A stretch of DNA of 64,000 nucleotides from Sedimentisphaerales bacterium. Lineage in GTDB: Bacteria > Planctomycetota > Phycisphaerae > Sedimentisphaerales > SM23-30. Numbering within the stretch: position 1 is the stretch's first letter; the number at the start of each line of letters is the position of its first letter. This document shows, piece after piece, positions 37,983-61,967 of this stretch. Position numbers and translations under genes: made by a program. The notes beneath the pieces were generated by a model. That model was not told the DNA's origin, ran no database searches, and saw only the letters and a list, made by a program, of their open reading frames with translations. The stretch covers positions 186,001 through 250,000 of the forward strand of contig JANQJS010000019.1 of NCBI GenBank assembly GCA_028281535.1, read 5' to 3'.

Positions 37983-38534
37983 ATGAAAAAAGTCTTTATT
38001 TTAATGGTCGTTGTTTGTTTATCAAATCCAGCTTTTGCTCTTGTTGATATTTCCGTTAACAATAATCCCTATGTAGGACAAAGTGTCTTGCCAGGGGATT
38101 TTGTTGATATCTTATGGGCAGTTGATCCTGCAAATCAATTTTTATTTGGAGGCTATCAGGGAATTCAAGGGACCGTTTCTAATGTTACCAATATTGTCTT
38201 CCAGCCTAATATACCTGGTTATTTTATTAATAGTTGGTCTGGAGCTCCGGATGGTAACGGTGGATTTGCATTTTATGGAGATGCCATTTCTTTTCCAAAT
38301 CCGCCTGCTGGTACAGAGATTGTGTCATTCCAATTTCCGATTCCAAATTTACCCGTCAATACGCCAATTGTCTTTGATATCACTGCTGGAAATTTAGGTC
38401 AGTTAGGTTTTGCGTCAACAGGCCCTGGTGATAACGCACCTTACGCCGAATTTAATGTCATCCCCGAACCCATGACCATGAGCTTGCTAGGCTTAGGCGG
38501 TATGGTTGCAATGCGAAGAAGACACCTCTCTTGA
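37983..38534 (+). CDS. PEP-CTERM sorting domain protein (tandem copy 1)
   Basis: This 183-residue exported protein has a signal peptide (KVFILMVVVCLSNPAFA), an ectodomain opening DISVNNNPYVGQSVLPGDFVDI, and a PEP-CTERM end VIPEPMTMSLLGLGGMVAMRRR. The ectodomain resembles cohesin-like beta-sandwich folds (PGDFVDILW, FDITAGNLGQLGF), which is inference. GAGGAG lies 9-10 bases before the ATG. The next gene is a close paralogue 60 bases on. Exosortase would anchor it at the surface; the gene for it is elsewhere. Confidence 0.9.
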   Translation: MKKVFILMVVVCLSNPAFALVDISVNNNPYVGQSVLPGDFVDILWAVDPANQFLFGGYQGIQGTVSNVTNIVFQPNIPGYFINSWSGAPDGNGGFAFYGDAISFPNPPAGTEIVSFQFPIPNLPVNTPIVFDITAGNLGQLGFASTGPGDNAPYAEFNVIPEPMTMSLLGLGGMVAMRRRHLS

Positions 38535-38594
38535 TAAGATCGATAAACCTTTGCTTAAAAAATAATCAAAATCCATTTTCTAAGGAGTTAAATA

Positions 38595-39173
38595 ATGTCT
38601 AAACAATTATCTTTAATCGCTATTTTAGTATTAACATCTATCGCTTCAGCGGTACCACCACCCACGGCACTCTATGATGTGTCTGTGAATAATAATCCAT
38701 ATCAGGGACAAGATGTTATACCAGGTGATTTCGTTGAAATTACGTGGCGAGTGGATGAAGCCAACGAATTTACTTTTGGGCCCGCCTATCAAGGGGTTTA
38801 TGGAACGATATCAAATGTGACGAATGCTATCGTTCAACCTCATTATCCAGGACTAATTTTTACTGATTGGACTGGTGCACCTGATGGCAATGGTGGGTTT
38901 GAGTTTTTTGGTAATTCTGTTGCATTTCCATTACCGGCCGCTGGAACAGAAATAGTAACTATACAATTTCCGATTCCGATTTTGCCCGTTAATACGCCCA
39001 TTGTTTTTGATGTGGCATCCGGGAATTTAGGTCAATTGGGTTTTGCGTCAACTGGTCCTGGTGATAATGCACCTTACGCAGAATTCAATGTCATACCAGA
39101 ACCCATGACAATGAGTCTCTTAGGCTTGGGTGGTATCGCAATTATTCGTCGAAAAAACTATTGTAAAGTGTAG
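38595..39173 (+). CDS. PEP-CTERM sorting domain protein (tandem copy 2)
   Basis: This 192-residue paralogue of the preceding gene shares DVSVNNNPYQGQDVIPGDFVEI, the QGVYGTISNVTNAIVQP stretch and a virtually identical C-terminal 45 residues (FASTGPGDNAPYAEFNVIPEPMTMSLLGLGG). A recent tandem duplication is likely, with the N-terminal half diverging faster. It has a signal peptide and the same PEP-CTERM anchor. AAGGAG is 8 bases before the ATG. No terminator is seen before the biosynthetic operon. Confidence 0.9.
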   Translation: MSKQLSLIAILVLTSIASAVPPPTALYDVSVNNNPYQGQDVIPGDFVEITWRVDEANEFTFGPAYQGVYGTISNVTNAIVQPHYPGLIFTDWTGAPDGNGGFEFFGNSVAFPLPAAGTEIVTIQFPIPILPVNTPIVFDVASGNLGQLGFASTGPGDNAPYAEFNVIPEPMTMSLLGLGGIAIIRRKNYCKV

Positions 39174-39383: not shown

Positions 39384-39412
39384 TTGGCATTCTAGTTGCT
39401 ATAGTGTAAAAT
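39384..39412 (+). promoter_or_regulatory. overlapping sigma-54-like and sigma-70-like promoters of the biosynthetic operon
   Basis: TGGCAT (39385-39390), 5 bases, TTGCT (39396-39400): a -24/-12 element with exact GG-to-GC spacing and one mismatch. The same stretch also offers TTGGCA (39384-39389), 17 bases, TAAAAT (39407-39412). A hairpin AAGAAAGC/GGTTTCTT lies just upstream. Transcription would start near 39410 (sigma-54) or 39419 (sigma-70). Confidence 0.55.
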
Positions 39413-39451
39413 AATGAATAAATTTTGGTCATAATCAGGGTAATTAGTAAA

Positions 39452-41137
39452 ATGCGTTTTCATTGGCTCTTAAATACACTGTTCAAACGGTCATGTTTAC
39501 CGAAAGCACGCCAATTTGATCGGGCACTAAAAAACATTGAAGTGACACAATCGAAGATCCTTCTAAACATGATCAAAAGTAATTGTGGCACTGAATTTGG
39601 CGCGAAACATAAGTTTGCTTCGATCAATTCATATCAAGATTTTCAGAACAATGTACCTCTTATGAGCTATGAGGACTACGGTCCTATGATCGATAACATC
39701 ATGGCGGGAACGCAAAATGTCTTAACCTGTCAACCGATTCATATGCTGGAACCCACAAGTGGTTCGACTGCCTCAACCAAATATATTCCCTATACAACGA
39801 CACTCAAACAGGAATTCCAAAAGGGGATCATGCCCTGGCTGTATGAGATGTATTCAAATTACCCGAAAATTTTGTCGGGAACGAGCTATTGGTCGATCAC
39901 GCCAATCTATAAACCTGAATCGGAACCATCCAGCCAAGTGCCAATTGGATTTGGTAATGATGGCAGTTATTTTAATCGAGGGCAGCGGTACTGTATTCAA
40001 AAATTATCTCCCGTGCCTTTTGACGTTTGTCGAATAACTGATATCGAATCGTTTCGATATATCACACTGCTATTTCTGGTCAAAGATAAACATCTCACCT
40101 TTCTCTCTATTTGGAACCCAACATTTTTAAATTTACTATTGGAGCCATTAAAATACTGGATGCCTCAAATCATAGATGATATTGAATTTGGCACAATAAC
40201 ACCACCTGGGCAGTGTGACGATCAGCTCATGACAATGATCAATAGCTATCATAGAAAAGATATAAAACGTGCCAATGAGTTAAGAGTGTTGAATAAGCAT
40301 GGCATTATATACGAAACCATTTGGCCAAAACTATCCTACATTAGTTGCTGGGCAGATGGTCATGCAAAAGAATATCTCAAAGATATTGCTAAACTTTTTC
40401 CAAAGTGCCAAATACTTCCCAAAGGACTCATTGCTACGGAATGTTTTGTGACGTTTCCGTTATCACAAAAAGGCAATCAACATATATTAGCAATAAATTC
40501 ACACTTTTATGAATTTTTGGAATATCCACAGGGTGAAAACATCAAGCTCGCACATCAATTGGAAGCAGGCAAACACTATACGATCATTGTGACCACAAGT
40601 GGCGGATTGTACAGGTATAAGATGGATGATATTGTCGAGGTCATAGGCTTTTATAAGAAAGCGCCATTATTGAAGTTTCTGGGTCGCTCAGAAAAAGTGT
40701 CCGATTGGTTTGGTGAAAAACTCAACGAAAAACATGTCGATCAAATTTTGACCCATGTCTTTGAATTGCATGCCATCATCCCTGAATTTTATATGCTCTC
40801 GCCAGAAAGAGAGTCAGATAGGGTTGGCTACGTGCTTTATTTGCAATGTTCGCAAGAGCATAACACCACTGATCAAGCTGATATTCAAAAATGTGTCATT
40901 GAGATTGAAAATCAACTTTGTAGTAACTATCATTATAGATATTGTCGAGAACTCGGTCAGTTAGCACCATTAAGATTATTTCTTATTGATGAAAATAAAA
41001 TGCCCGCCAGCGCGACAACGGTTTATTTGCAAGCCTGTCAGGGCCATGGCCACAAACTGGGCGACATTAAACCATCGGTGCTCAATAGTCATGATGGTTG
41101 GGCAAAAAAATTTAAAGGATCATTTGTAACCCATTAG
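39452..41137 (+). CDS. GH3-family acyl-amide synthetase
   Basis: The GH3 (auxin-responsive) fold belongs to the adenylate-forming ligases, which activate a carboxylic acid with ATP and join it to an amine, usually an amino acid. About 560 residues. Landmarks: the P-loop-like LEPTSGSTASTKYIPYT (about 100-116), the LEAGKHYTIIVTTSGGLYRYKMDDIVEV region (about 365-395), GRSEKVSDWFGEKLNE, all in family order. The start at 39452 (MRFHWLLN) is preferred over an in-frame TTG 9 codons upstream; AGGGTAA precedes it. First gene of the operon, 12 bases before the first radical SAM gene. Acid and amine substrates are unknown; a fatty acyl substrate is inferred from the desaturase downstream. Confidence 0.85.
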   Translation: MRFHWLLNTLFKRSCLPKARQFDRALKNIEVTQSKILLNMIKSNCGTEFGAKHKFASINSYQDFQNNVPLMSYEDYGPMIDNIMAGTQNVLTCQPIHMLEPTSGSTASTKYIPYTTTLKQEFQKGIMPWLYEMYSNYPKILSGTSYWSITPIYKPESEPSSQVPIGFGNDGSYFNRGQRYCIQKLSPVPFDVCRITDIESFRYITLLFLVKDKHLTFLSIWNPTFLNLLLEPLKYWMPQIIDDIEFGTITPPGQCDDQLMTMINSYHRKDIKRANELRVLNKHGIIYETIWPKLSYISCWADGHAKEYLKDIAKLFPKCQILPKGLIATECFVTFPLSQKGNQHILAINSHFYEFLEYPQGENIKLAHQLEAGKHYTIIVTTSGGLYRYKMDDIVEVIGFYKKAPLLKFLGRSEKVSDWFGEKLNEKHVDQILTHVFELHAIIPEFYMLSPERESDRVGYVLYLQCSQEHNTTDQADIQKCVIEIENQLCSNYHYRYCRELGQLAPLRLFLIDENKMPASATTVYLQACQGHGHKLGDIKPSVLNSHDGWAKKFKGSFVTH

Positions 41138-41149
41138 GAACTTGGTTCA

Positions 41150-42544
41150 ATGAAAATAGTACTTATCTCTCCCAGCGGCATTATGTATCGTAAAAAAGAT
41201 GGTATCTTTCCGCGGGCCCTGCGGTATGCCCCATTAACCTTAACCACATTGGCATCCTTAGTGCCTCAAGAGCTCAATGCGCAGATAACCTTAATTGATG
41301 AAGGTGTAGAACATTTCGATCCAAATATCGAAGCTAATCTTGTGGGGATTTCTGCCATAACCGGCACTTCAAACCGTGCCTATGCCATCGCTCGTCATTT
41401 TCGACATAGAGGTATTCCAGTGGTTATGGGTGGCGTACATACCACGCTGATGCCTCAGGAAGCGAAGCTGTATGCTGATTCTGTTGTTACCGGGCTCGCC
41501 TACGAATCCTGGCCTCGCTGTCTCAATGATTTCAATCAGGGAAATTTACAACCCTTCTATTCGCAGCAGCCCAATATCTCTCTTGAAGGATTACCCTTTC
41601 CAAGAAAAGATCTCTTAAAGAAATTTTCCTATTTATCTAATGGCTCAACCCAGGCCACTTTTGGTTGTCCCTATCGTTGTGATTTTTGCGCTGTCGTCGC
41701 GACCCAGAAATCATACCTTCGCAGACCTGCTCATGAGATGATCGATGAGATCCGTCGCATCAAAAGTAAATTCATTGTTTTCGTTGACCCAAGCCCGATG
41801 GAAGATCGTGATTATGCCATGCAACTCTACCGTGAAATGATCCCCCTTAAAAAACAATGGGGTGGTCTTTCAACGGTTAAGGCCGCCGATGATGATGAGC
41901 TTATGGACCTGGTGGCCAAAAGTGGTTGTAAAGGTTTATTGCTGGGCTTTGAATCGGTTACTCAGGAAAGTGCCAATCAAATCAACAAGCGTTTTAATAA
42001 AGTAGAGATCTATAAAGACGTTGTCAGAAGGCTTCATGATCGGGGCATCGCTATCAATGGCACGTTTATGTTTGGCATGGACAGCGATACCGAAGATTCA
42101 TTCAAACAAACCGTCGATTTTGTCAATGAGGCAAAAATCGATCTGCCGCGTTATGCGATTTATACGCCTTTTCCCGGAACGCCCATTTATCAACGGCTCG
42201 AAAAAGAGGGACGCATTCTAACCAAAAACTGGACGCTTTATGATGGCCAGCATGTCGTTTACCAGCCCAAATGCATGACCGCTGAGCGACTCCGCGAAGG
42301 CCATCTATGGGCTTGGAAAAATACTTATGCCGTCAAATCGATTCTTAATCGTATTTCAGATGTCAGTGGGTTCCCAATGATTCCCTTTATCACCAACTTA
42401 GGCTATCGTTACTATGCCAATCGGTTAAAAAATTTCCCTGACGACATCATGGTGCAACTTAACACGCAATGGAATGATTCTTTAAATCATTCAAGCGATC
42501 TTAATTTGGCAAAGCATCAAAGTACAATCGGAGCATGCGGGTAA
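41150..42544 (+). CDS. B12-binding-type radical SAM enzyme (paralogue 1)
   Basis: This 464-residue protein has an N-terminal cobalamin-binding-like Rossmann domain (about 1-140; LVGISAITGTSNRAYAIARHF, VVMGGVHTTLMP). The radical SAM domain carries Cys173, Cys177 and Cys180 in FGCPYRCDFC, the GLLLGFESV strand and FMFGMDSDTEDSF. Enzymes of this class methylate unactivated carbons or rearrange lipid and natural-product skeletons. The C-terminus (PKCMTAERLREGHLWAWKNTYAVKSI) recalls the tail of many such proteins. It lacks a DxHxxG motif, as usual for the class. Followed by two further paralogues with 1-base overlap; the three may act in sequence. Confidence 0.88.
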   Translation: MKIVLISPSGIMYRKKDGIFPRALRYAPLTLTTLASLVPQELNAQITLIDEGVEHFDPNIEANLVGISAITGTSNRAYAIARHFRHRGIPVVMGGVHTTLMPQEAKLYADSVVTGLAYESWPRCLNDFNQGNLQPFYSQQPNISLEGLPFPRKDLLKKFSYLSNGSTQATFGCPYRCDFCAVVATQKSYLRRPAHEMIDEIRRIKSKFIVFVDPSPMEDRDYAMQLYREMIPLKKQWGGLSTVKAADDDELMDLVAKSGCKGLLLGFESVTQESANQINKRFNKVEIYKDVVRRLHDRGIAINGTFMFGMDSDTEDSFKQTVDFVNEAKIDLPRYAIYTPFPGTPIYQRLEKEGRILTKNWTLYDGQHVVYQPKCMTAERLREGHLWAWKNTYAVKSILNRISDVSGFPMIPFITNLGYRYYANRLKNFPDDIMVQLNTQWNDSLNHSSDLNLAKHQSTIGACG

Positions 42545-43917
42545 TGAAAGTCTTATTAATACAACCTGCGATGGGGCATCTGAAGGGAAAAAAACTCAAA
42601 CGGCCCTGGACATTAGAACCGCTGGCAATCGCCACTCTGGCAGGATTAACACCGCCTGATGTTCAGCTGGAATTTTATGATGATCGCATTGAAGAGATCC
42701 AATATGATCCCTCCGTGGATTTAGTCGGTATTAGTGTTGAAACATCAACCGCACTGCGTTCTTACGAAATCGCCAAAAAATTCAGACAATTAAATATCCC
42801 TGTTGTCATGGGAGGTGTGCATCCAACGCTCATGCCGGATGAAGTGTCAAATCATGCCGATGCTATCGTTATGGGGCAGGCCGAACAAGTCTGGGAGACG
42901 ATTTTAGAAGATGCCGCGAAGAAAAAATTAAAAAAAAAATATCAGAAGCAAAATCCCTCTCTCGATAAAATTAAAATCGACCGAGCCATCTTTGAAGGGA
43001 AAAAATATCTTCCCGTACAGCTCATTGAATTTGGCCGAGGTTGTCCCTATCGATGCGAATTTTGTGATATTCCCGTTTATTACGATGGACGATATGACAT
43101 TCGTCCCATTGACCATATCGTTTCCGAAATCAAACAATCCAACCGACAATTTTTCTTAATCGTGGATGATAATCTAGGCGTTAATCCGAAGAGATTAGAA
43201 GAGTTTTGCCATGCGATTAAGCCTTTAAATATCAGCTGGGTCAGCCAGACAAGCATCCATCTGGCTAAAAATAAGCGATTGCTTGAGTTAGTCTCACAAA
43301 GTGGATGCAAGGGCTTTCTGATAGGGTTTGAATCCATTTCGCCTGAAAACTTATCGCAGATGAATAAGACCTTTAACCTGACATTTTCATTCGAAGAGGC
43401 CTTGAAACGATTCAATGATCACAATCTAAGAATTTTAGCCTCCTTTATTGTCGGATACGATCATGATACCCCCGAATCGATTGAGCAACTGGTCAATTTT
43501 GCCATTAAAAACAAAGTGTTCCTGGCCAACTTTAATCCACTGATTCCTGTTCCCAATACGCAATTATACAATCGCCTGAAACAGGAAAATAGACTCGTTA
43601 ACGACAAATGGTGGTTAGATTATAATTACACCTATAGTGATTATGTCTATACCCCCAAACAGTTAACTGCCCAGCAAATGGCTGACGAATGCATAAGGGC
43701 CAAAGAAAAATTTTATCAGGTGAATTCTATTGTTCGTCGAGCGATGGGATCAAAAACGAATATGAGAAATTTGAAGTCCTTCATGATGTATTTGTTTTTC
43801 AATTTTATGTCACGCAAGGAGATTAAATTAAAAATTCACTCTTCATTGGGCTTAAAAAAATCAATGAATGTCGTCAATCAACATCTCTCAGGAGAGATGC
43901 GGTTACAAGAAAGCTAA
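42544..43917 (+). CDS. B12-binding-type radical SAM enzyme (paralogue 2)
   Basis: Start at 42544, in a TAATG overlap with the previous stop; an upstream in-frame ATG (42535) would overlap by 10. The 457-residue protein has the same layout: LVGISVETSTALRSYEIAKKF and VVMGGVHPTLMPDEV in the B12-like domain, radical SAM cysteines 167, 171 and 174 in GRGCPYRCEFC, FLIVDDNLG, FLIGFESISP and FIVGYDHDTPES. It is closer to paralogue 3 than to 1 (shared YDDRIEEIxYD, DKWWLxY). Its tail is long (about 60 residues, basic). Substrate unknown. Confidence 0.88.
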   Translation: MKVLLIQPAMGHLKGKKLKRPWTLEPLAIATLAGLTPPDVQLEFYDDRIEEIQYDPSVDLVGISVETSTALRSYEIAKKFRQLNIPVVMGGVHPTLMPDEVSNHADAIVMGQAEQVWETILEDAAKKKLKKKYQKQNPSLDKIKIDRAIFEGKKYLPVQLIEFGRGCPYRCEFCDIPVYYDGRYDIRPIDHIVSEIKQSNRQFFLIVDDNLGVNPKRLEEFCHAIKPLNISWVSQTSIHLAKNKRLLELVSQSGCKGFLIGFESISPENLSQMNKTFNLTFSFEEALKRFNDHNLRILASFIVGYDHDTPESIEQLVNFAIKNKVFLANFNPLIPVPNTQLYNRLKQENRLVNDKWWLDYNYTYSDYVYTPKQLTAQQMADECIRAKEKFYQVNSIVRRAMGSKTNMRNLKSFMMYLFFNFMSRKEIKLKIHSSLGLKKSMNVVNQHLSGEMRLQES

Positions 43918-43918
43918 G

Positions 43919-45265
43919 ATGAATATGAAACTGACACTGATTTATCCCAGCATGGGTAAAATTCTAAATGAAAAATATGTCAAATCCTGGCAAATGCAGC
44001 CATTAAGTATTGCAGTCATCGCCGGGCTCACTCCTAATGACATAGATATCACCTTCTATGATGATCGACTCGATGAGATTCCTTACGATGATCCGACCGA
44101 TCTGGTAGCGATCAGTGTAGAAACCTACACGGCTAAGCGGGCCTATACCATCGCCGATGAATATCGCAAACGCGGTATTCCGGTGGTCATGGGGGGGATG
44201 CAGGCGTCATTAATTCCCGAAGAAGTTTCACAACATGCCGATGCCACCGTAGTGGGCGATGCGGAACCTGTTTGGCAAGATGTCCTGGAGGATGCCAAAA
44301 ACAATCAGCTGCAAACCTATTACCGAACACCTCGTAAAAATGGCCTGCTAACCCATACAAGACCAGATCGAACGATTTATCAAGATAAAAACTACTTATC
44401 GCTCGAATTAATCGAAGCAGGAAGAGGCTGTCCATTTGCATGTGATTTTTGTGCGATTGCCGGTTCCTACCATCAATCGTATCGAATGAAAACCATCGAT
44501 GATATCGTTAATGAAGTAGGGCGGGTTGATGGCAAAAATTTATTTTTTGTCGATGATAATTTTATCTCCAAAAGTCGCCAGACCAAAGAACTCTGCCATG
44601 CGATTGCCCCTTTAAATAAAAAATGGTTTAGTCACGGTTCCATTAATATGACCAATGACGATGAATTGCTCGATTGCTTAGCGAAAAGTGGTTGTGCCAA
44701 TATCCTCATCGGATTTGAATCCTTAAATCCAAAAGTCCTGCAGGCCATGGGCAAAAGCTGGAATATCGCCAAACGAGATTATTCCGAAGCGATTCAAAAA
44801 TTGCGTGATAGAGGTATTACTATTTATGCGACCTTTGTATTTGGCTATGACGATGATACCGAAGATGATATCAAACGCACCTTTGAGTTTGCCGTCGAGC
44901 AAAAGTTTTGCATGGCAGCGTTCAATCATTTGGTGCCATTTCCTGGAACGCCCCTCTATGATCGATTAAAAAAGGATGATCGCTTGATTAACGACAAATG
45001 GTGGCTCACCTCAGGACAAACGTTTGGCGATGTCTTTTTCAAACCGACCAAGATGTCAGCAGAAACATTAGCGCAGCGATGTTACGAATGCCGCCAGGAA
45101 TATTACAGTTATCATTCAATTTTCAAACGTTCATTGGATTTTAAGGCCAATTGCAATGGTTGGTATCAAAGCTTGATCTATTTCATTACCAATCATGTCT
45201 CTCGTAAAGGCATATTGCAACGCCAGGGTTGGCCCATTGGCGATTTGATAGGATCCGTAGGATGA
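43919..45265 (+). CDS. B12-binding-type radical SAM enzyme (paralogue 3)
   Basis: Start placed at 43919, one base after the previous stop; the frame also runs back to 43868 inside the previous gene. The 448-residue protein has a B12-like domain (FYDDRLDEIPYDDPTDLVAISV, VVMGGMQASLIPEEV, with Gln-Ala for the usual His-Pro), radical SAM cysteines 171, 175 and 178 in GRGCPFACDFC, NLFFVDDNFISK, ILIGFESLNP, FVFGYDDDTEDD. The stop overlaps the next start as ATGA. The replaced residues in the B12 domain could change cobalamin handling. Together with paralogues 1 and 2 this suggests several radical steps on one scaffold. Confidence 0.88.
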   Translation: MNMKLTLIYPSMGKILNEKYVKSWQMQPLSIAVIAGLTPNDIDITFYDDRLDEIPYDDPTDLVAISVETYTAKRAYTIADEYRKRGIPVVMGGMQASLIPEEVSQHADATVVGDAEPVWQDVLEDAKNNQLQTYYRTPRKNGLLTHTRPDRTIYQDKNYLSLELIEAGRGCPFACDFCAIAGSYHQSYRMKTIDDIVNEVGRVDGKNLFFVDDNFISKSRQTKELCHAIAPLNKKWFSHGSINMTNDDELLDCLAKSGCANILIGFESLNPKVLQAMGKSWNIAKRDYSEAIQKLRDRGITIYATFVFGYDDDTEDDIKRTFEFAVEQKFCMAAFNHLVPFPGTPLYDRLKKDDRLINDKWWLTSGQTFGDVFFKPTKMSAETLAQRCYECRQEYYSYHSIFKRSLDFKANCNGWYQSLIYFITNHVSRKGILQRQGWPIGDLIGSVG

Positions 45266-46350
45266 AAGTGACTTTCGACATAGCAACCAGTCAGGATGAT
45301 GCGCTCTTGCGGTATTGCCTAAAAGAAAATACCATGGAGGGTTCAATTTCCTTGGCATTTGAAGCGGAACCAAGCTTCTTTAAGGCCGTGTCGGTTCAAG
45401 GAAAAGAATCGCAGGTCTTGGTCGCGAGAACACAAAATCATTCACAAATCGCCGGGCTGGGTTTGCGCTCCATTAAACCCCTGCATGTTAATAATGAGAT
45501 TAAAAATATTGGCTATTTAAGCGGGCTTAGATTATCGCCGGGCTATCGCCATAGCATTCACTTGGCTAGAGGCTATCAGTTTTTAAAACAACTGGACGCT
45601 GATCAAAAAGTTCCTTTCTATCTGACAACCATTTTAGAAGAGAACGAAAAGGTCATTAAATTGCTCGAAAGCAATCGAGCGGATTTACCTACCTACCATT
45701 ATTTGAGCCGTTACAATACTTATTACATGAAGGCCATTCCAGAAGTCTCATCAAAAAACTATACTATTCGTCAGGCAACGCAGAAAGATTTGAGTAACCT
45801 ATTGGCATTTCTAAATCGAGAAGGAAAGAGAAAAACTTTTTTCCCCTATTTAGAAATAAATGATTTTCAATCAACCTATTTAATGGGATTACAGGTCAGC
45901 GACTTTTATCTCGCCTACGATCAAAACGAGTGCGTAGGCGTCTTGGCCAAATGGGATCAGTCCTCATTTAAACAGACGCGTGTTATGAATTACAGTCAGG
46001 GCATCAAAGTCGCTCGTCCCTTGGCCAATATGGTATCCTCCTGGACGCGTTTACCCAAACTCCCCAAAGTCGGTAGCCTGTTACGATATTACTATCTGAG
46101 CTTTGTGGCTATAAAGAAGGATAATCCTGATATTTTAACTCAACTCATCGCATATATCTCAAGCCAAAACAATGGCTATGATCTCTTTACCCTGGGGCTT
46201 TGCGAAAATGACCCTTTAACAAAAGCATTTGAGAATATAAAAGCCAAAGTATTAAAATCAAACATTTATCTCGTCTCATTTGACAAACAGTTTAAGATGC
46301 CAAATGCCATTAAAGAAAAAACACTTTATTTGGAGCTAGCAACACTATGA
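45262..46350 (+). CDS. GNAT-like acyltransferase with two GNAT-type halves
   Basis: Start at 45262 gives ATGA overlap with the previous stop. The 362-residue protein reads as two GNAT-like halves: the first with IAGLGLRSIKPLHV, NIGYLSGLRLSPGYRHSIHLARGYQFLK (a V/G-x-x-P-x-x-R-x-x-G/H-like acyl-CoA loop, about 92-112), the second beginning NYTIRQATQKDLSNLLAFLN with YLAYDQNECVGVLAKWDQ. It resembles the double-GNAT proteins that modify lipids or peptides, but I recognise no specific family. The acyl or aminoacyl donor is unknown. Coupled to the next gene by another ATGA overlap, so both proteins may work together. Confidence 0.65.
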   Translation: MKVTFDIATSQDDALLRYCLKENTMEGSISLAFEAEPSFFKAVSVQGKESQVLVARTQNHSQIAGLGLRSIKPLHVNNEIKNIGYLSGLRLSPGYRHSIHLARGYQFLKQLDADQKVPFYLTTILEENEKVIKLLESNRADLPTYHYLSRYNTYYMKAIPEVSSKNYTIRQATQKDLSNLLAFLNREGKRKTFFPYLEINDFQSTYLMGLQVSDFYLAYDQNECVGVLAKWDQSSFKQTRVMNYSQGIKVARPLANMVSSWTRLPKLPKVGSLLRYYYLSFVAIKKDNPDILTQLIAYISSQNNGYDLFTLGLCENDPLTKAFENIKAKVLKSNIYLVSFDKQFKMPNAIKEKTLYLELATL

Positions 46351-47078
46351 GTCAGGTATTAAGTGAAAAGAAATTAGTCGGCAGCATGGAAAGAGTCTCC
46401 AATGTCCCTGATGCTGATATGGTTGAAATGTATCAGTTAATGACACGCTACTATGATGGAATGCAGCTCGATCGTTTTGAAAAAGATTTTCGGGAAAAAG
46501 ATTATATTATACTTCTAAAAGAGTCATCAAACCATGACATCATCGGATTTTCGACCTTTCAAATGATTAACAAAAACATCGATGGCATCGCTCATAGTGT
46601 TCTCTTTTCTGGTGATACCATCGTTGATGAGAATTTCTGGGGCCAGCTTGAATTACCTCGAATTTGGTTGGAGTTTGTGGTATCTTACCAACAGGAAAAT
46701 CCACAGGTTCAATTATATTGGTTTCTTATTTGCAAGGGATATAAAACCTATCGGTTCTTACCAACTTATTTTTATGACTTTTACCCTTGTTACAAAAATC
46801 CAGAATTAAGGGCCGAGAAAAAAGTGTTGGACACATTTGCGAAAATAAAATTTGGTGATGATTATAACCCGCAAACCAATATTATTCATTATCGTCATCA
46901 GAAAGATCGCCTCAAGCCGGGTATAGCCGATATTGATTCAGGCCGGCTTAGAAATCCACACGTACGATATTTTTCTAAAAAAAATCCGAATTGGTCACGT
47001 GGTGATGAATTAGCTTGTATTGTAAAAATCGAACCGAAAAATTTTAAATCGTTCGTTCATAAATTAATCAAAAAATAA
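46347..47078 (+). CDS. GNAT-like protein of unknown function
   Basis: This 243-residue protein has ATGA coupling to the previous gene. A GNAT-like core is suggested by DADMVEMYQLMTRYYDGM, IIGFSTFQMINK, AHSVLFSGDTIVDENFW, and WFLICKGYKTYRFLPTYFYDFYP, a pattern seen in uncharacterised proteins beside radical SAM or lipid genes. The canonical acetyl-CoA loop is not obvious, so it could be a structural partner of the upstream double-GNAT protein. No membrane segment or signal peptide. Function unassigned. Confidence 0.55.
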   Translation: MSQVLSEKKLVGSMERVSNVPDADMVEMYQLMTRYYDGMQLDRFEKDFREKDYIILLKESSNHDIIGFSTFQMINKNIDGIAHSVLFSGDTIVDENFWGQLELPRIWLEFVVSYQQENPQVQLYWFLICKGYKTYRFLPTYFYDFYPCYKNPELRAEKKVLDTFAKIKFGDDYNPQTNIIHYRHQKDRLKPGIADIDSGRLRNPHVRYFSKKNPNWSRGDELACIVKIEPKNFKSFVHKLIKK

Positions 47079-47096
47079 TGAGTAAAGGAGTCTACA

Positions 47097-47699
47097 ATGA
47101 GTCATAAATGCGTGAGTGTGATGTTGTTTTTATCATGTTGCCTTCCTCTGCATGCTAATAATACTATCGCAAGCTCAAATGAAAAAGAGCATGTTGCCTT
47201 AAGAGCTCTATTAGAAAAAGCCCAAACGGCGTTAAATAATAAAGATCCCAAAGCCCTGCGAGAGTGTCTCGCAAACGAATTTGCCTTTACGGCGATTGAT
47301 CAAACGTTAATAACAACTGCCCAAGAGCTGCAGGATTGTTATGATAAAATGTTCAATGCGTCAGACGCTCCACTCTTGGATATGAAATCTGAGCCCAAAG
47401 CCGCTGTGCCATCCATTTTTCTATCAGACAATATCGCTTATTGTTACGGGACCTCTTTTGATACCTATACCTTAAAAGATGGCCGAAAAAATTCATTTAA
47501 TGCCCGCTGGACCGTAACCTGTATTAAGGAAAATGATCAATGGAAAGCCGCAACGGTTCATATCGGAACAAATTTTCTAGACAACGCGATACTAACTTCA
47601 GTGGTAGATAGTGGAAAGAAAATGATGCTGGGAACCTTTGTTCTAGGTCTGCTCATAGGATTTATCTTTGCCAAACTGATTCGGAAGAAAACAAATTAA
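47097..47699 (+). CDS. NTF2-like/DUF4440-type protein with signal peptide and C-terminal membrane anchor
   Basis: This 200-residue protein has a Sec signal (MSHKCVSVMLFLSCCLPLHA), a SnoaL/NTF2-like cone domain (about 30-165; LRALLEKAQTALNNKDPKALRECLANEF, then NARWTVTCIKENDQWKAATVHIG, the typical DUF4440 ending), and a C-terminal helix (LGTFVLGLLIGFIFAKLIRKK). The cone faces the periplasm and is held to the membrane. AAAGGAG lies 7 bases before the ATG. Such folds bind small hydrophobic ligands or serve as scaffolds; here it may hold the lipid intermediate, which is inference. Confidence 0.75.
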   Translation: MSHKCVSVMLFLSCCLPLHANNTIASSNEKEHVALRALLEKAQTALNNKDPKALRECLANEFAFTAIDQTLITTAQELQDCYDKMFNASDAPLLDMKSEPKAAVPSIFLSDNIAYCYGTSFDTYTLKDGRKNSFNARWTVTCIKENDQWKAATVHIGTNFLDNAILTSVVDSGKKMMLGTFVLGLLIGFIFAKLIRKKTN

Positions 47700-47706
47700 T
47701 TTAAAA

Positions 47707-48612
47707 ATGCTTTGGACGCGGCAGCCAATGATCATCGATAAAACAAAATTCTTTATACCAGAAAAGTTTACGCCCTTATATTATACACCAATATACGAGC
47801 ATTTAGAATGTAAACATAAACTGCGATACAATCAACTCAACGCACTTTTATTTAATGAGCAATTTATTTTCTTTGAATCCACCACATGCCAGACCGTTGC
47901 CAATGCGATTTTAAAAAAGCCTGAATTAGAATGGTCTCATGATGATGTAAAAACCTTTCAGAGTGAAGAAGAAACGCATTGGAAATGGTTTCATGCCTTG
48001 AACGTGAATGCAGAGTCCACGTTTTACAAGGAGTCCCCGTTTCATTTTATTGAAGTCTCACCCAAGCAACTCAAAACATGGAATGCGTTGACTCGCCGTA
48101 TAGATTACTTCCCATTGTTTCTATGGATAATATATATGCAGGAGGAGCGAGCCCTATATTATGCCAATACCATGATTCAAGACTCGCAGGATTTGGAACC
48201 CAATTATGTCAGTGTGCAAAAAAAACATCTGGATGATGAAGAAAGTCACAGTGATATTATTTCGAAATTACTAGAGATTTTGTGGTACAAAAAAAATAAA
48301 CTCATTCGAACGGTTAATGCCAAGCTATTTTCATGGATTATCCTGGAGTTTTTCTTATTGCCTAAGAGATCCGGTATGAAAATAATCGATCAATGGCTTG
48401 CAGAATTCACAGAACTCAAGTACTTAAGGTCTGATATTTTATGTCATTTTAAAAAACTCAGTGCTAATATGGATTTTGTGGCATCGCTCTATGGCAAAGA
48501 CGTTATCCCAAACACCTGGGACCGATTTTGTCAATTACCTGAGTTTAAACCCTTTTTAAATAAACTAACAGAACATGACTATGAGCTCTCAAAAGTATCC
48601 TATTCCAGCTAA
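47707..48612 (+). CDS. AurF-type diiron oxygenase
   Basis: This 301-residue helical protein shows the diiron ligand set of the AurF/CmlI N-oxygenase family: Glu51 or Glu57, Glu88-x2-His91 (EETH), Glu146/147 (MQEER), and the His174-x3-Glu178-x2-His181 signature (HLDDEESH). AurF-family enzymes oxidise amines to hydroxylamines, nitroso or nitro groups with oxygen; some members catalyse other oxygenations. It needs an electron donor not encoded here. The start could be ATG 47707 or 47728. It overlaps the desaturase gene by 38 bases. In this operon an amine made by GH3/GNAT steps would be a fitting substrate. Confidence 0.75.
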   Translation: MLWTRQPMIIDKTKFFIPEKFTPLYYTPIYEHLECKHKLRYNQLNALLFNEQFIFFESTTCQTVANAILKKPELEWSHDDVKTFQSEEETHWKWFHALNVNAESTFYKESPFHFIEVSPKQLKTWNALTRRIDYFPLFLWIIYMQEERALYYANTMIQDSQDLEPNYVSVQKKHLDDEESHSDIISKLLEILWYKKNKLIRTVNAKLFSWIILEFFLLPKRSGMKIIDQWLAEFTELKYLRSDILCHFKKLSANMDFVASLYGKDVIPNTWDRFCQLPEFKPFLNKLTEHDYELSKVSYSS

Positions 48613-49513
48613 GTTGAATATCACCATTGCAATTTTTCAGGTGGTAATCTTATCTGGCCTACTAATATTAACATCATACACAGATAATATCTGGCAAGTC
48701 ATTGGTATAGCATTTTTATATGGCATTGCAATGAATTCCGGTTATGCCATGCTGCACGAAGCAGAACACAATCTATTGCACACCAATAAAAAAGTGAATA
48801 CCACGGCAGGTGTGGTTTTGGCTTTATTCTTTCCCGCACCATTTCATCTTATTCGCCAGGGGCATATCGGCCATCATTTAAGAAATCGATCCGACGACGA
48901 AGCCTTTGATTTCTATTTCGAGGGAGAAAACCCTATTTGGAAGTTCTTACAACTGTATGGCACACTCACAGGCTTTTTCTGGATCGTTATTGTCCTCAGT
49001 AATCTCCTGGCAATCATTTGTCCCTGGATATTCAAAGCGAAAAATTCTAAAATTGCCTCACTCGATCGTCCCTCTGAAGCTTTCTTTGAAACTTTGAACG
49101 AAAAATTTATACCTTATATCATCATGGAAGCAATCGCCGTTTTACTCCTTCATGGATTAATCATTACGATTTTTAATATCCCGATTTGGAAATATCTCAT
49201 CGTTCTTTTTGGTTTTGGACTCATGTGGTCTGCCATGCAATATGTGCATCATTTCGGAACCGATCGCGATGTACAAAAAGGGGCACTCAATCTAAAAACA
49301 TTTTATTTACTCGATCTGATTTGGCTAAATCATAACTGGCATTTATATCACCACATGGATCCGACCATTCCTTGGATATACCTGCCCACTCAGCATAAAG
49401 ATAAAAAAGATGATAGAGGGAATCTAATAAAGTATTATTTTCGCATGTGGCGTGGACCACGAAAAACAAACAACCGAGTTCAAAACAGATATGCAGGAAA
49501 AATTATCCGATAA
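48575..49513 (+). CDS. membrane fatty-acid desaturase
   Basis: This 312-residue enzyme of the diiron membrane desaturase/hydroxylase superfamily has three His boxes: HEAEH (61-65), HIGHH (97-101) and HNWHLYHH near residue 252, between about four membrane helices. It would introduce a double bond or hydroxyl into a lipid acyl chain, using oxygen and reduced ferredoxin or cytochrome. Start ATG 48575 with ATG 48581 as alternative. Overlaps both neighbours, so it is clearly part of the operon. The acyl position cannot be predicted. Confidence 0.9.
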   Translation: MTMSSQKYPIPAKLNITIAIFQVVILSGLLILTSYTDNIWQVIGIAFLYGIAMNSGYAMLHEAEHNLLHTNKKVNTTAGVVLALFFPAPFHLIRQGHIGHHLRNRSDDEAFDFYFEGENPIWKFLQLYGTLTGFFWIVIVLSNLLAIICPWIFKAKNSKIASLDRPSEAFFETLNEKFIPYIIMEAIAVLLLHGLIITIFNIPIWKYLIVLFGFGLMWSAMQYVHHFGTDRDVQKGALNLKTFYLLDLIWLNHNWHLYHHMDPTIPWIYLPTQHKDKKDDRGNLIKYYFRMWRGPRKTNNRVQNRYAGKIIR

Positions 49514-50222
49514 TCAAACCATTGAGCATGTGGAATCTTCAAAATCGTTTGACGCAGCCGGTTTAACCACGCTGCAGCGATTACTATTGCTTGCCATAAA
49601 TGTCCTGGGATTGATTCATATCATCGGGACATTCGCAGTTTACTTTATCCCAACCCTGTCAATCGAACTTAGAATATCTGCAGCCCTCTTGGTCTTATAC
49701 CTTGTCCCGCCCATCATCGCACGATGTTTATTAATCTTAGCTCCCATAAAACAGCATCGTATCAAACCTGGCTCCAAGCCTTATTTTGTCTGGTGGACTC
49801 TATTCAATTTACAATCTGTTTATAGCAGACTTCCATTTTTAGAAGAATTATTACGATTGATTCCCGGAATCTATTCGATCTGGTTGCGTCTCTGGGGCTC
49901 CAAAATAGGGCGACTAACCTACTGGACGTCAGGAACGACGATTCTGGACCGAAGTTTTTTACAGATTGGAGACGATGTGATCTTTGGTGCAGGCTCGCGA
50001 CTGAATCCGCATGTACTCATTCGCAATGACTCCGGCGAACTTGAACTTTTGCTAGCCCCTGTTATCGTTGGCAACCAGGCGATTATTGGAGGCTATTCTT
50101 TATTAACTTCAGGCACGCAGGTTGCTGACAATGAAGTGACCAGAGCCTTTACGATTTCACCCCCATTCACTCGATGGGAAAATGGCAAAAGAACCAAGCT
50201 GGACACTACCGCGGCCAAATGA
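49491..50222 (+). CDS. left-handed beta-helix (hexapeptide) acyltransferase-like membrane protein
   Basis: After an N-terminal hydrophilic stretch, two membrane helices (LLLLAINVLGLIHIIGTFAVYF and LLVLYLVPPIIARCLLIL) lead into a hexapeptide-repeat domain with the repeating [LIV]-G-x(4) turns: LRLWGSKIGRLTYWTSGTTI, LQIGDDVIFGAGSRLNPH and VIVGNQAIIGGYSLLTSGTQVADN. It is a putative membrane-bound O- or N-acyltransferase; the catalytic His typical of some members is not evident. Start chosen as ATG 49491; an in-frame GTG at 49452 would give 13 more residues. The stop overlaps the next start as ATGA. Confidence 0.7.
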   Translation: MQEKLSDNQTIEHVESSKSFDAAGLTTLQRLLLLAINVLGLIHIIGTFAVYFIPTLSIELRISAALLVLYLVPPIIARCLLILAPIKQHRIKPGSKPYFVWWTLFNLQSVYSRLPFLEELLRLIPGIYSIWLRLWGSKIGRLTYWTSGTTILDRSFLQIGDDVIFGAGSRLNPHVLIRNDSGELELLLAPVIVGNQAIIGGYSLLTSGTQVADNEVTRAFTISPPFTRWENGKRTKLDTTAAK

Positions 50223-50845
50223 AACAAGAAAATCTTCATATCGAACTCCTTTCTGCCTTAAAAGCACACTGGAAATACAAAGTTGCAATCGGCCTGGTAT
50301 TATATGCCCTTATCTGCGTACCTTATTTTGCCACCTCGCGACTCATCATTTTTCCCATCAAAGAAATTCAACCCACATGGCTGGATAACATGATTGGCTT
50401 TTACGATATCACCGTGATTGGCTATCTTTCCATCTACCTGCTATTAGCCGTTCCACCCTATACGATGACATCAAAACCTGACTTAAACAAATACGCCCTG
50501 GGAATCCTCATCGTCGGCTGGACCGGCAGCCTCATCCATTTTTTCTGGCCAACCCATGTCCCAAGACCGGACCCAACCAACACCTTTTTTCTTTATCAAT
50601 TTTTAGTCTCAATAGAACAACCTTACAATTGTATTCCATCCCTACATGCCGCCTTTTCAATTTACACCGCATTGACATTAAATAAATGCGCCCTCATCCA
50701 TCTATACCCAAAAGCTTCAAAAAGTATTGTTTGGATCTGGTGCCTGATCATACTCATCTCAACACTCACCACCAAACAACACATGATTATCGACCTGATC
50801 CCAGGCATCGTTTTAGCCATCATCGCCTACAAAATTACATTTTGA
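50219..50845 (+). CDS. PAP2-type membrane phosphatase or inositolphosphotransferase-like protein
   Basis: Start at 50219 (ATGA overlap with the previous stop). The 208-residue protein has about five membrane helices and PAP2-family motifs: PSLHAAFSIYTALTL (about 145-160) and TKQHMIIDLIPG (about 180-192), i.e. the P-S-x-H and H-x3-D motifs. It resembles the PAP2_3/inositolphosphotransferase branch that removes or transfers phosphate headgroups of lipids. As last gene of the operon it may finish or release a lipid product. A REP-like hairpin begins one base after the stop codon region. Confidence 0.8.
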   Translation: MKQENLHIELLSALKAHWKYKVAIGLVLYALICVPYFATSRLIIFPIKEIQPTWLDNMIGFYDITVIGYLSIYLLLAVPPYTMTSKPDLNKYALGILIVGWTGSLIHFFWPTHVPRPDPTNTFFLYQFLVSIEQPYNCIPSLHAAFSIYTALTLNKCALIHLYPKASKSIVWIWCLIILISTLTTKQHMIIDLIPGIVLAIIAYKITF

Positions 50846-51315: not shown

Positions 51316-53133
51316 ATGTTTAAAACGAAAATGTTAATGATCCTAACAATGTTCTTGTCCAGCCTTTGCTTAAATCTACAAGCGCAAACCATTCGCTATG
51401 TCAGTAAAAATGGAAACAATACTGATGGTTTATCTTGGACGACAGCGTACAATGATTTGCAAAATGCTTTGGATGATGCCGTTAGCGGTAATGAAATTTG
51501 GGTAGCCGCTGGGACCTATTATCCCACATCAGATGACGGGTTGGGTATTGGCCTCAGAGGAAATCATTTTCAATTAAAAAATGGTGTTTCAATTTATGGA
51601 GGCTTCAGTGGCAGTGAAACCAATTTATCTCAAAGAAATATCATTTGTAATGAAACGATCTTATCTGGTGATATTGATCAAGATGATCATAATCTTCAAG
51701 AAGGAGAATTTGATAGCGACAATAGTGTTCATGTTATTTACTTGCCAGAAAATCTTAATTTAGATAATACGGCTGTATTAGATGGTTTTACGATTTCAGG
51801 TGGGAATGCGAACAACACACCAAATTCTGTATATGGAAAAAGAGGTGGTGGATATTTTAGTTATGATTCTTCACCATTGATCAGACAATGTTATTTCAAA
51901 AATAATCACGCGATAAATGGTGGGGCAGTTAGTATTACTGTTATGGAAAATACAACAGAACCGACCAATCCAAAACCACAAGATACAACACCCGTATTTG
52001 AAAATTGTATTTTTGATTCTAACTATGCTAGTTTAGGTGGTGCAGCTTATAATATTGTTGAAACCACCCCAGAGATTATTGGAAATATTGAGGAACATTT
52101 CATACTTAATCCTGCATTTAATAACTGTTTGTTCTTAGACAATGTTGCTCACCAAGGGGCAGGTGCCTACAATATTTCATATATGAATGGCTCTGGCAAT
52201 AGTAATAGAGACCTATATTCAGTACAATGTTTGCCTGAATTTAATAATTGCACTTTTTTCGGCAACCAATCTCCTGGAATCAAAGGGTACGGTGCTGCAA
52301 TATATTCAATGGCTAAAGCTACTTGCAATAGTTTTCCAGACCAATGCCAATCTGTTTGCGATGTTAAAGTAAATAATTCATTGTTTTCAGAAAACTATGC
52401 GAATAATACCAGTACTGTATTTTCCCCTGGCCATGATCTCTATTTGGCCAGAACTGGTTATCATGACGAACATGCAAAATTAATAATAAACAACTCGATG
52501 TTTAATTTTATTCCAGTAGATCCTATGACACCTTGGAAAGATAACATTGCTTTAGCAGACAATTTTGATACCAGTATGAATGAGCCACATGGTGAATATG
52601 ATTGGGAATCAGATTTATGTGAAGATTTAGAGTCGACCCAGGATTATTCAATCGAAATATGCCCATTCGATATGAATATCGGAGATCCATTATTTAGCGT
52701 ACCTTCAAATCCAGCGGGTGCGGATACAAAATTTGGCACAGCAGATGATGGATTGACTCTTGATACACTTAGTCCTGCCAAAGATGCGGGTAATAACATG
52801 TATGCGAATTCAGCTACAGACTTAAAAGGTAGTACTAGAATTCAAGGGTTTTCTGTAGATTTAGGAGCTTATGAATTTGGTGGTCAGGCAAATAATAGTT
52901 GTTGCCCTTGCCTCGGGGATGGAGATGGTGATGGTGACGTTGATACGATTGATTTAGGTGATTTCATCGCATTGCTTCCTTCATCACCACCATATATTCT
53001 TTCTCCAGTACCCAGTGGAGAAGAATGCTATGATATTGATGGTGATGGAGATTTAGATACCATTGACTTAAGCGCGGTCATAGCGCATATAAATTCAGTG
53101 GATGAACCATATATAGCGCCCTGTATGAATTAA
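51316..53133 (+). CDS. exported right-handed beta-helix protein with C-terminal dockerin-like repeats
   Basis: This 605-residue protein has a signal peptide (LMILTMFLSSLCLNLQAQ), then TIRYVSKNGNNTDGLSWTTAY, the start of a pectin-lyase-like parallel beta-helix seen in many surface proteins of this phylum. About 10 rungs follow with repeated N-x-x-F/FxxNxA patterns. A choice-of-anchor Q-like segment (LSPAKDAGNNMYA, VDLGAYEFGG) precedes two dockerin-type calcium loops: DGDGDGDVDTIDLGDFI and DIDGDGDLDTIDLSAVI. It is probably surface displayed or assembled by cohesin-dockerin contacts. No catalytic residues of pectate lyases are apparent. It is flanked by two copies of a promoter-leader module and followed by a terminator. 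Confidence 0.85.
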   Translation: MFKTKMLMILTMFLSSLCLNLQAQTIRYVSKNGNNTDGLSWTTAYNDLQNALDDAVSGNEIWVAAGTYYPTSDDGLGIGLRGNHFQLKNGVSIYGGFSGSETNLSQRNIICNETILSGDIDQDDHNLQEGEFDSDNSVHVIYLPENLNLDNTAVLDGFTISGGNANNTPNSVYGKRGGGYFSYDSSPLIRQCYFKNNHAINGGAVSITVMENTTEPTNPKPQDTTPVFENCIFDSNYASLGGAAYNIVETTPEIIGNIEEHFILNPAFNNCLFLDNVAHQGAGAYNISYMNGSGNSNRDLYSVQCLPEFNNCTFFGNQSPGIKGYGAAIYSMAKATCNSFPDQCQSVCDVKVNNSLFSENYANNTSTVFSPGHDLYLARTGYHDEHAKLIINNSMFNFIPVDPMTPWKDNIALADNFDTSMNEPHGEYDWESDLCEDLESTQDYSIEICPFDMNIGDPLFSVPSNPAGADTKFGTADDGLTLDTLSPAKDAGNNMYANSATDLKGSTRIQGFSVDLGAYEFGGQANNSCCPCLGDGDGDGDVDTIDLGDFIALLPSSPPYILSPVPSGEECYDIDGDGDLDTIDLSAVIAHINSVDEPYIAPCMN

Positions 53134-54706: not shown

Positions 54707-55459
54707 ATGATTTATGGAATGTATGTATCTGCTGGAGGCGCACTAGCTAATTCGTACCGACAGGATGTCATTGCGAATAATATAGCTAACGTCGACACCG
54801 TTGGGTTCAAACAGGATCTAGCGATGTACACTGCGCGACCCACTGAAAGCCAGGAGAATGGTCAGCGAAGGTATACCACTGCCCTGTTGGAGGGACTAGG
54901 TGGTGGTACTTTTTCTTTACCAACCTACACTGACCACACTCAAGCAAACCTGGAACCTACTGGAAGAAACTATGACCTCGCTTTAGAAGGCAATGGTTTC
55001 TTCCAGGTCAAGCAGGGTGACCAGGTTCTATACACGCGCGACGGTCGTTTCACTCACAACACGCAAAATCAACTCGTCATGGTTGAATCTCAGCTTCCCG
55101 TTCTTGACATTGCCGGTAACCCCATCGAAGTTAATCCTACACTCGATTTTGTTGTCAACGAAAATGGCACGGTCAGCCAGAACGGCCAAGCAATTGCAAA
55201 TCTCTCGATCGTCGAATTTAACGATACCAACAAATTAACCAAGCAGGGCGGAAACCTCTACATCAATGATGAGCAGGCGCAACAGGCCCAGCCCTCAAAC
55301 TCAATTATTAAACAAGGCTATCTGGAAGGCTCAGGCGTTGTTGCGGCCGACCAGCTAGTGCAAATGATGAAAACGCAACGAATGTTTGAAGCAAACATGA
55401 ATATGGTACGAATGCAGAATCAAACTATGGGCAGATTGATTCAGCATTTCGGACAATAA
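54707..55459 (+). CDS. flgF: flagellar basal-body rod protein FlgF
   Basis: Proximal rod component, exported by the flagellar type III apparatus. The 250-residue protein has the rod/hook N-terminal motif (MIYGMYVSAGGALANSYRQDVIANNIANVDTVGFK split around NNIANVDT, residues about 20-30), a central FlgF/FlgG-type domain (NYDLALEGNGFFQVKQGDQVLYTRDGRF), and the C-terminal VQMMKTQRMFEANMNMVRMQNQTMGRLIQ coiled coil. FlgF rather than FlgG because the flgG gene, better conserved, follows 18 bases on. AAGGATGAG precedes the ATG. Confidence 0.92.
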   Translation: MIYGMYVSAGGALANSYRQDVIANNIANVDTVGFKQDLAMYTARPTESQENGQRRYTTALLEGLGGGTFSLPTYTDHTQANLEPTGRNYDLALEGNGFFQVKQGDQVLYTRDGRFTHNTQNQLVMVESQLPVLDIAGNPIEVNPTLDFVVNENGTVSQNGQAIANLSIVEFNDTNKLTKQGGNLYINDEQAQQAQPSNSIIKQGYLEGSGVVAADQLVQMMKTQRMFEANMNMVRMQNQTMGRLIQHFGQ

Positions 55460-55477
55460 ACTTAGAAAGGACGTTTA

Positions 55478-56284
55478 ATGGCTATTAGTGCAATGTCATC
55501 AGCAGCATCGGGTATGAAATCAATGGATACCCAATTGGATGTCATCGGTAATAACCTGGCAAATAGCGGCACACATGGCTTTAAAGCTTCACGTGTCAAT
55601 TTTGAAGACCTCTATTATGAAGAGCGTCGCCAGCCAGGTGCCTTAAACAATTTAGGACAAGCCACCAGTACCGGCTTATTTGTTGGATTGGGATCGAAAG
55701 TCTCCAATACACAATTAGATTTTAGTACAGGGGCATTTGAAACTACCGAGCAACCCTTAGATATGGCCATTGCTGGTAAAGGCTTTTTCAAAGTCACAAC
55801 CTTTGATGGCATCGGACAAGGGATCGCTTATACGCGTGCCGGTAATTTTACCGTAAATAATGTCGGCCAACTTGTATTAGGCACATCCAATGGGCCAATA
55901 CTCGATCCTCCCATTAACATCCCTAACAATGCTGATATTGAAAGTATTACCATTTTAGGAGACGGACGAGTGACCGCACAAGTCGATGGCACAGAAACAG
56001 AAGTCGGGCAAATTCAATTAACACGTTTTCCAAATCCTCATGGCCTACGACTCGAAGGTGGAAACCTTTATACGGAAACCGAAGCAAGTGGTGCTCCGAT
56101 CGACGGAAACCCAACAGATGATGGTTTGGGTGAAATTAAACAACGTGTTCTCGAATCCAGTAATGTCGATTCAGTTCGTGAATTGATCAAAATGATTCGG
56201 ACTCAACGTCATTTTGAATTGAATTCACAAGTGATTAGAGCGGCTGATAGTACGATGCAAACCATCGGGCAGCTGGCAAGATAA
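55478..56284 (+). CDS. flgG: flagellar distal rod protein FlgG
   Basis: Distal rod subunit, 268 residues: a typical FlgG length. N-terminus has AISAMSSAASGMKSMDTQLDVIGNNLANSGTHGFKASR, with the FlgG-specific insertion FEDLYYEERRQPGA (about 45-58) that controls rod stiffness. The centre has PLDMAIAGKGFFKV, and the C-terminus VRELIKMIRTQRHFELNSQVIRAADSTMQTIGQLAR is intact. AAAGGACG lies before the ATG. Part of the operon, 24 bases before flgA. Confidence 0.96.
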   Translation: MAISAMSSAASGMKSMDTQLDVIGNNLANSGTHGFKASRVNFEDLYYEERRQPGALNNLGQATSTGLFVGLGSKVSNTQLDFSTGAFETTEQPLDMAIAGKGFFKVTTFDGIGQGIAYTRAGNFTVNNVGQLVLGTSNGPILDPPINIPNNADIESITILGDGRVTAQVDGTETEVGQIQLTRFPNPHGLRLEGGNLYTETEASGAPIDGNPTDDGLGEIKQRVLESSNVDSVRELIKMIRTQRHFELNSQVIRAADSTMQTIGQLAR

Positions 56285-56308
56285 TAAAAGGATTTAAGTA
56301 TTAATCAA

Positions 56309-58176: not shown

Positions 58177-58231
58177 TGTTGGTTTCTGCCATGAGTAACA
58201 TAAATAAATAACCACCATCTTTGGAAAAAAT

Positions 58232-59347: not shown

Positions 59348-59353
59348 GATCAT

Positions 59354-60170: not shown

Positions 60171-60185
60171 TAAGGATTAAATCGT

Positions 60186-61913: not shown

Positions 61914-61967
61914 TTGTAAGGATTAATCATTATGAATCATTCGATGAAAAATTGTAAGGAATAAGTT

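Follow-up and report, generated by a model that had tools for sequence, protein, structure and literature searches.

An eleven-gene GH3, GNAT and radical SAM operon of a Sedimentisphaerales bacterium is one copy of a recurring bacterial cluster that may direct the synthesis of amide-linked, lipid-like molecules

We analysed a window of 64,000 nucleotides from a Sedimentisphaerales bacterium (Planctomycetota; assembly GCA_028281535.1, contig JANQJS010000019.1, positions 186,001 to 250,000), in which eleven open reading frames (ORFs) follow one another on the + strand at 39425-50845. These eleven genes are one copy of a recurring and apparently undescribed cluster present in at least 11 bacterial phyla, including cultured strains. 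We propose, with a probability of roughly 55%, that they form an operon for the biosynthesis of a lipid-like molecule with an amide linkage, in which a GH3-type synthetase and two GNAT-fold proteins replace assembly-line enzymes. The wider claim, that such clusters in many phyla make a new class of amide lipids or lipid-like metabolites, with the GH3-GNAT-GNAT trio replacing nonribosomal peptide synthetase (NRPS) chemistry and radical SAM enzymes usually remodelling the product, is put forward more tentatively, at slightly less than even odds. The families assigned to the eleven same-strand genes by an earlier reading of this DNA (the original prediction) were recovered by Pfam and, for both GNAT-like proteins, by AlphaFold models searched with Foldseek, the hexapeptide match being below threshold; active-site motifs are intact where checked. 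The ORFs are as follows.

39425..41137, + strand: GH3-type acyl-amido synthetase (PF03321, PF23571 and PF23572 above cut-off; adenylation-type motifs; cluster-specific GH3 clade); opens at TTG, likely start ATG 39452
41150..42544, + strand: rS1, radical SAM protein with a degenerate B12-binding-like domain, cluster orthologue (PF04055; CxxxCxxC; orthologues 41-54% identical)
42535..43917, + strand: rS2, extra radical SAM paralogue, 43% identical to rS3 (PF04055, PF02310); likely start ATG 42544
43868..45265, + strand: rS3, radical SAM protein, cluster orthologue (PF04055; adjoins the rS1 orthologue in most loci); likely start ATG 43919 or 43925
45229..46350, + strand: GNAT1, tandem-GNAT protein with an N-myristoyltransferase-like fold (model, Foldseek; conserved beside GNAT2); likely start ATG 45262
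46347..47078, + strand: GNAT2, GNAT-fold protein (model, Foldseek) with an SGDT motif invariant in 37/37 sequences
47097..47699, + strand: NTF2-like (DUF4440) protein with a C-terminal membrane anchor (PF14534; hydrophobic segment 173-196)
47707..48612, + strand: AurF-type diiron protein (PF11583; ligand set invariant in 8 sequences; best solved match AurF)
48575..49513, + strand: membrane protein of the fatty-acid-desaturase superfamily (PF00487; His boxes in 39/39 of the family; predicted membrane segments)
49452..50222, + strand: putative hexapeptide (left-handed beta-helix) acyltransferase with N-terminal membrane segments (sub-threshold PF00132; orthologues in cluster loci); opens at GTG, later start likely
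50174..50845, + strand: PAP2-family membrane phosphatase/phosphotransferase (PF01569/PF14378; PSxH in 25/26 of the family); likely start ATG 50219

The order of these genes is conserved across bacteria. An rS1 alignment was scanned against one genome each of 84,980 species and returned 204 relatives, of which the best 80, from about 15 phyla, were analysed. The strict same-strand order rS1-(rS)n-GNAT1-GNAT2-GH3 was found in 47 of these 80 loci, so that conservation of GH3 beside B12-type radical SAM genes, proposed as a check by the original prediction, came out positive. All five genes (rS1, rS3, GNAT1, GNAT2 and GH3) were present in 52 of the 65 loci that were complete or had at least 8 kb of sequence. 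Moreover, a phylum-wide search with GH3 recovered homologues flanked by GNAT2 and GNAT1 and sometimes also by the AurF, hexapeptide, PAP2, desaturase and NTF2-like genes, and wider regions showed the same genes rearranged, as in locus L034 (AurF-desaturase-hexapeptide-PAP2-NTF2-rS1-Rieske-rS3-GNAT1-GNAT2-GH3). Most loci come from metagenome-assembled genomes, and contamination may therefore affect single phylum assignments; an isolate, Aeoliella straminimaris (L064), carries the cluster with AurF. The automatic families f1-f3, f6 and f9 were discarded as shadow ORFs. Within the window's own order, AurF was found in 1 of 161 genomes and the bare core was seen in one other genome (G096, locus L145). 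This rarity, together with the broad spread over phyla and a plasmid copy described below, suggests horizontal transfer. The GC content of the operon (about 0.39-0.41) is similar to that of the remaining window, so that composition offers no hint of transfer.

The window GH3 protein matched the Pfam N-terminal, central and C-terminal domains with 185 (PF03321), 72 and 30 bits (cut-off 23.6), and contains the motifs TSGSTASTK and YRYKMDD, from which ATP-dependent amide synthesis is predicted. In a maximum-likelihood tree, built as a quick version without bootstrap, every GNAT-linked GH3 fell into one clade (SH-aLRT 100) that spans 11 phyla and is separate from OlsH-like proteins and from GH3 proteins lacking the GNAT pair. 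Context labels on this tree required two changes, the minimum possible, compared to 16.2 for shuffled labels. Two labels had been corrected after the first tree: L047, initially called a cluster, has no GNAT pair and lies outside the GNAT-linked clade, and L028 duplicates the sequence of L049. The solved structures closest by sequence are plant GH3 proteins (e.g. 4b2g and 4epm; remote, about 80 bits). These plant acyl-acid-amido synthetases share the domain order and the adenylation-type motifs of the window protein; they conjugate hormones and benzoates and are only remotely related to it.

Three cultured carriers have GH3 proteins inside the GNAT-linked clade. A near-complete cluster lies on the Citrobacter portucalensis plasmid NZ_CP134684.1 (L154, 13247-25342), in the order GNAT2-GH3-rS1-rS3-GNAT1-rS-rS-PAP2-NTF2 with a further radical SAM gene and a desaturase on the opposite strand, making five radical SAM genes in all. 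This plasmid is IncFIB/IncFII, mobilizable and from a gull isolate; at high identity its cluster was found in no other plasmid record and in no E. coli genome. The Burkholderia arboris locus (NZ_CP101525.1; L155, 7788-19230) holds GNAT2, GNAT1, GH3, PAP2, a Rieske oxygenase, three desaturase-superfamily regions and a PF10118 protein whose match to AurF is weak, and has no radical SAM gene near the trio. No radical SAM gene was found near the core of Acinetobacter baumannii NZ_CP104448.1 (L159, 10911-18272) either; here the order is HlyD-MFS-GNAT2-GH3-OEP-GNAT1, with a transposase upstream, and the core has its own tripartite-type exporter genes (HlyD, MFS and the outer-membrane efflux gene OEP), of which the transporter pair may be EmrAB. 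Azospirillum plasmids encode a distant GNAT2-like protein, near which no other cluster gene was found in the one plasmid examined, and a plasmid search with the AurF protein gave no match. Since Burkholderia and Acinetobacter keep the trio with no radical SAM gene close by, GNAT1, GNAT2 and GH3 are separable from the rest and probably build the amide scaffold, which the radical SAM and oxidative enzymes would then tailor. Thus, GNAT1-GNAT2-GH3 appear to be the true core, and the radical SAM proteins appear to have a tailoring role.

This arrangement revises the original prediction of one fixed eleven-gene pathway: the core is usually preceded by two radical SAM genes and is accompanied by an optional second module. 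This module comprises the NTF2-like, PAP2, desaturase, AurF and hexapeptide genes, to which genes for a Rieske oxygenase and a hydrolase-like protein are often added. The NTF2, Rieske (f4), hydrolase-like (f7), desaturase and PAP2 genes co-occur across loci; among the 19 named loci with NTF2, the Rieske, f7 and desaturase genes are each present in 18. The f7 protein of related loci had no Pfam match, and Rieske ligands are intact family-wide. AurF and hexapeptide genes are rarer (e.g. L034, L044, L046, L050, L100 and L125). Both AurF and the three radical SAM proteins had been taken as parts of the pathway; AurF turned out to be a minority accessory and rS2 an extra paralogue. The FA_desaturase and PAP2 domains were found by Pfam, and the hexapeptide protein, whose match reached 22.5 bits against a cut-off of 27, has orthologues that recur in the same setting.

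Neither GNAT-like protein reached the cut-off of any Pfam family, and neither matched an NCBIfam model. The model of GNAT2 (243 amino acids; pLDDT 94.3) was assigned a GNAT fold by Foldseek with a probability of 1.00, and that of GNAT1 (373 amino acids; pLDDT 92.5) a tandem-GNAT, N-myristoyltransferase-like fold, also with a probability of 1.00, its matches being the mycobacterial tandem GNAT MAB_4324 and N-myristoyltransferases at a TM of about 0.6. GNAT1 thus shares the two-domain fold of these proteins (7q3a, 1iyl), whereas identity to them is about 9-14% and a protein substrate for GNAT1 is unsupported.

By Pfam, all three radical SAM proteins have B12-binding-like and DUF4070 regions, the B12-binding match passing its cut-off in rS2 only. 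The CxxxCxxC motif is kept in 88/88 rS1-type, 12/12 rS2-type and 97/97 rS3-type proteins. The cluster proteins share the radical SAM core, this motif and a B12-binding-like N-terminal region with BchE, HpnJ, PhpK, AprD4 and TIGR04072 proteins; however, all NCBIfam scores are far under the cut-offs, including those of the hopanoid models TIGR03471 (HpnJ; 77-93 bits against 577.6) and TIGR04367 (HpnR; 55-57 against 650), and the cluster proteins form groups of their own. AprD4-like members need no B12, and methylation is therefore not implied for the cluster enzymes. Radical SAM relatives in the window's own order (35-40% identical) stood in unrelated contexts in those looked at (L146-L153). The number of radical SAM genes varies between loci; Chloroflexota versions (L105, L126, L060, L079 and similar) carry at least three, interleaved with the core, and the copy number thus differs widely between lineages.

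The AurF-type protein scored 40.8 bits with PF11583 (cut-off 29.6). Its candidate diiron ligands E57/E51, E88, H91, E147, H174, E178 and H181, a seven-ligand site including an extra histidine, are those invariant in the eight sequences, and its H-x3-E-x2-H spacing agrees with that of AurF. The best solved match, the p-aminobenzoate N-oxygenase AurF itself (3chh), is remote (E 5e-4 with a profile); the window protein belongs to the same family, but no polyketide pathway accompanies it here, and amine oxidation by it is a prediction by analogy.

We thus suggest the following scheme. GH3 would activate a carboxylic acid as its adenylate, a fatty acid being the probable substrate, and couple it to an amine. 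Amines would also be acylated by GNAT1, with its N-myristoyltransferase-like fold, and by the single-domain GNAT2, so that the scaffold could be assembled without an NRPS, a polyketide synthase (PKS) or a dedicated carrier protein. Unactivated carbons may be altered by two or three radical SAM enzymes of the B12 type. Desaturation, acylation, dephosphorylation and oxidation of the molecule at the membrane may be the work of the membrane module (desaturase, hexapeptide acyltransferase, PAP2 and anchored NTF2-like protein) together with the AurF-type enzyme. Since related clusters carry MMPL or MFS/HlyD/outer-membrane-channel exporters, the product probably enters or crosses the envelope. As the original prediction had stated, no PKS, NRPS or carrier genes are present: Pfam found no ketosynthase, condensation/adenylation-thiolation or carrier domain in the operon, and no PKS, NRPS or carrier family was among the 25 most-matched families of 74 further same-strand neighbours. 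Its broad idea, amide formation with tailoring of an acyl chain outside such systems, fits the cluster, although B12-dependent methylation, N-oxidation and the lipid nature of the product are assignments that we infer.

The scheme is supported by the conserved five-gene order, the single GH3 clade and the kept GH3, radical SAM, Rieske and desaturase motifs. That the product is a lipid is suggested by the desaturase, PAP2 and membrane proteins, by the fatty-acid hydroxylase and MMPL transporters that adjoin the core in some loci, by the N-myristoyltransferase-like fold and by the OlsH precedent (PMC12493201). Several points weigh against the scheme. GH3 motif I matched a loose pattern in just 53 of 64 family proteins. 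The canonical R/QxxGxG/A acyl-CoA loop is absent from both GNAT families, being degenerate by alignment column counts, which makes catalysis or the acyl donor uncertain. The cluster clade is far from OlsH, so the acid and the amine could differ greatly; AurF relatives oxidise amines of soluble compounds; and the MFS-type exporter beside the Acinetobacter trio need not carry a lipid. The main choice lies between a lipid and a soluble amide.

A soluble, secreted amide made from modified amino acids, such as a signal, antibiotic or metallophore, is the foremost alternative, which we regard as rather unlikely. Radical SAM enzymes would alter an amino or aromatic acid, GH3 and the GNAT proteins would join it to amines, and AurF, or a Rieske enzyme in other loci, would oxidise an amine. 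The conserved AurF-type ligands and AurF as the best solved match, the HlyD, MFS and outer-membrane efflux genes flanking the Acinetobacter trio, and a patchy distribution with a plasmid copy, typical of secondary metabolism, are consistent with this notion, as is the fact that plant GH3 proteins conjugate small acids. The desaturase, PAP2, fatty-acid hydroxylase, MMPL neighbours and several membrane proteins nevertheless point to a lipid.

OlsH acts in the OlsH/OlsI pathway of Singulisphaera acidiphila, a planctomycete, and is a bacterial GH3 characterised as producing N-acyl ornithine (PMC12493201). It is quite improbable that the window operon is a variant of this ornithine (amino acid) lipid pathway, in which GH3 would act together with acyl transfer. 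The two systems are alike in a bacterial GH3 presumed to link an acid and an amine through an amide bond and in their occurrence in planctomycetes, and OlsH is the closest NCBIfam model of the window GH3; however, the score with NF052613 was 67.9 bits against a cut-off of 620, and OlsH-like proteins, chosen as the best NF052613 matches and themselves under that cut-off, form a separate clade with a support of 100. The operon also lacks an OlsI-like alpha/beta-hydrolase gene and OlsG, and adds two GNATs, radical SAM proteins, AurF, a desaturase, a hexapeptide protein and PAP2.

Joining or cyclisation of acyl chains by the radical SAM enzymes, as part of a ladderane-like or membrane-spanning lipid system, is likewise hardly probable: the three proteins matched the ladderane-associated B12 radical SAM model TIGR04072 weakly (58, 68 and 72 bits), far under its cut-off of 360 and no better than the BchE, HpnJ or PhpK models, the operon has no fatty-acid synthase genes, and the core persists without radical SAM genes. 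Chance adjacency of unrelated genes in this genome, to which the rarity within the order might point, is refuted by the order kept across many phyla and the single GH3 clade.

By the sequence tests above, the cluster belongs to none of the OlsH, ladderane, hopanoid and NRPS/PKS systems. The gene set corresponded to no characterised pathway, in agreement with the original prediction, and beyond OlsH no description was found in the open-access literature; subscription papers and preprints lay outside this search, and a prior description is possible. Cultured versions are available in Aeoliella straminimaris, Citrobacter portucalensis, Burkholderia arboris and Acinetobacter baumannii, their product not being described in the literature searched. 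Cluster finders based on core enzymes would probably overlook a cluster without PKS or NRPS genes. If the amide-lipid proposal is true, it would define a widespread amide lipid or signal family, new acyl- and amide-forming enzyme families and a set of uncharacterised radical SAM enzymes, and it would be testable in culturable bacteria.

Overlaps of 1-4 bases, claimed previously for many junctions, hold at four: 1 base at rS1/rS2 and 4 bases each at rS3/GNAT1, GNAT1/GNAT2 and hexapeptide/PAP2, as read from the ORF coordinates with the more likely internal ATGs; at the other junctions the genes either stand a short distance apart or overlap by more bases. A putative promoter at 39384-39412 was no better than shuffled sequence, and the promoter/terminator scan showed no excess over shuffles. 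An Rfam search of the window returned nothing, and hence no riboswitch at the operon; the host genome (4.4 Mb, 99.4% complete, with a single GH3 gene) has two cobalamin riboswitches, neither of them at the operon. Just upstream, at 37983-39173, are two adjoining proteins with weak C-terminal PEP-CTERM motif matches. Just downstream, at 51316-53133, is a repeat protein that has a dockerin type I domain and weakly matches polymorphic-membrane-protein repeats, and flagellar genes, coding for rod/hook proteins, FlgA, FlgH, FlgI, FlgK and flagellin-like proteins, are clustered at 54707-63896.

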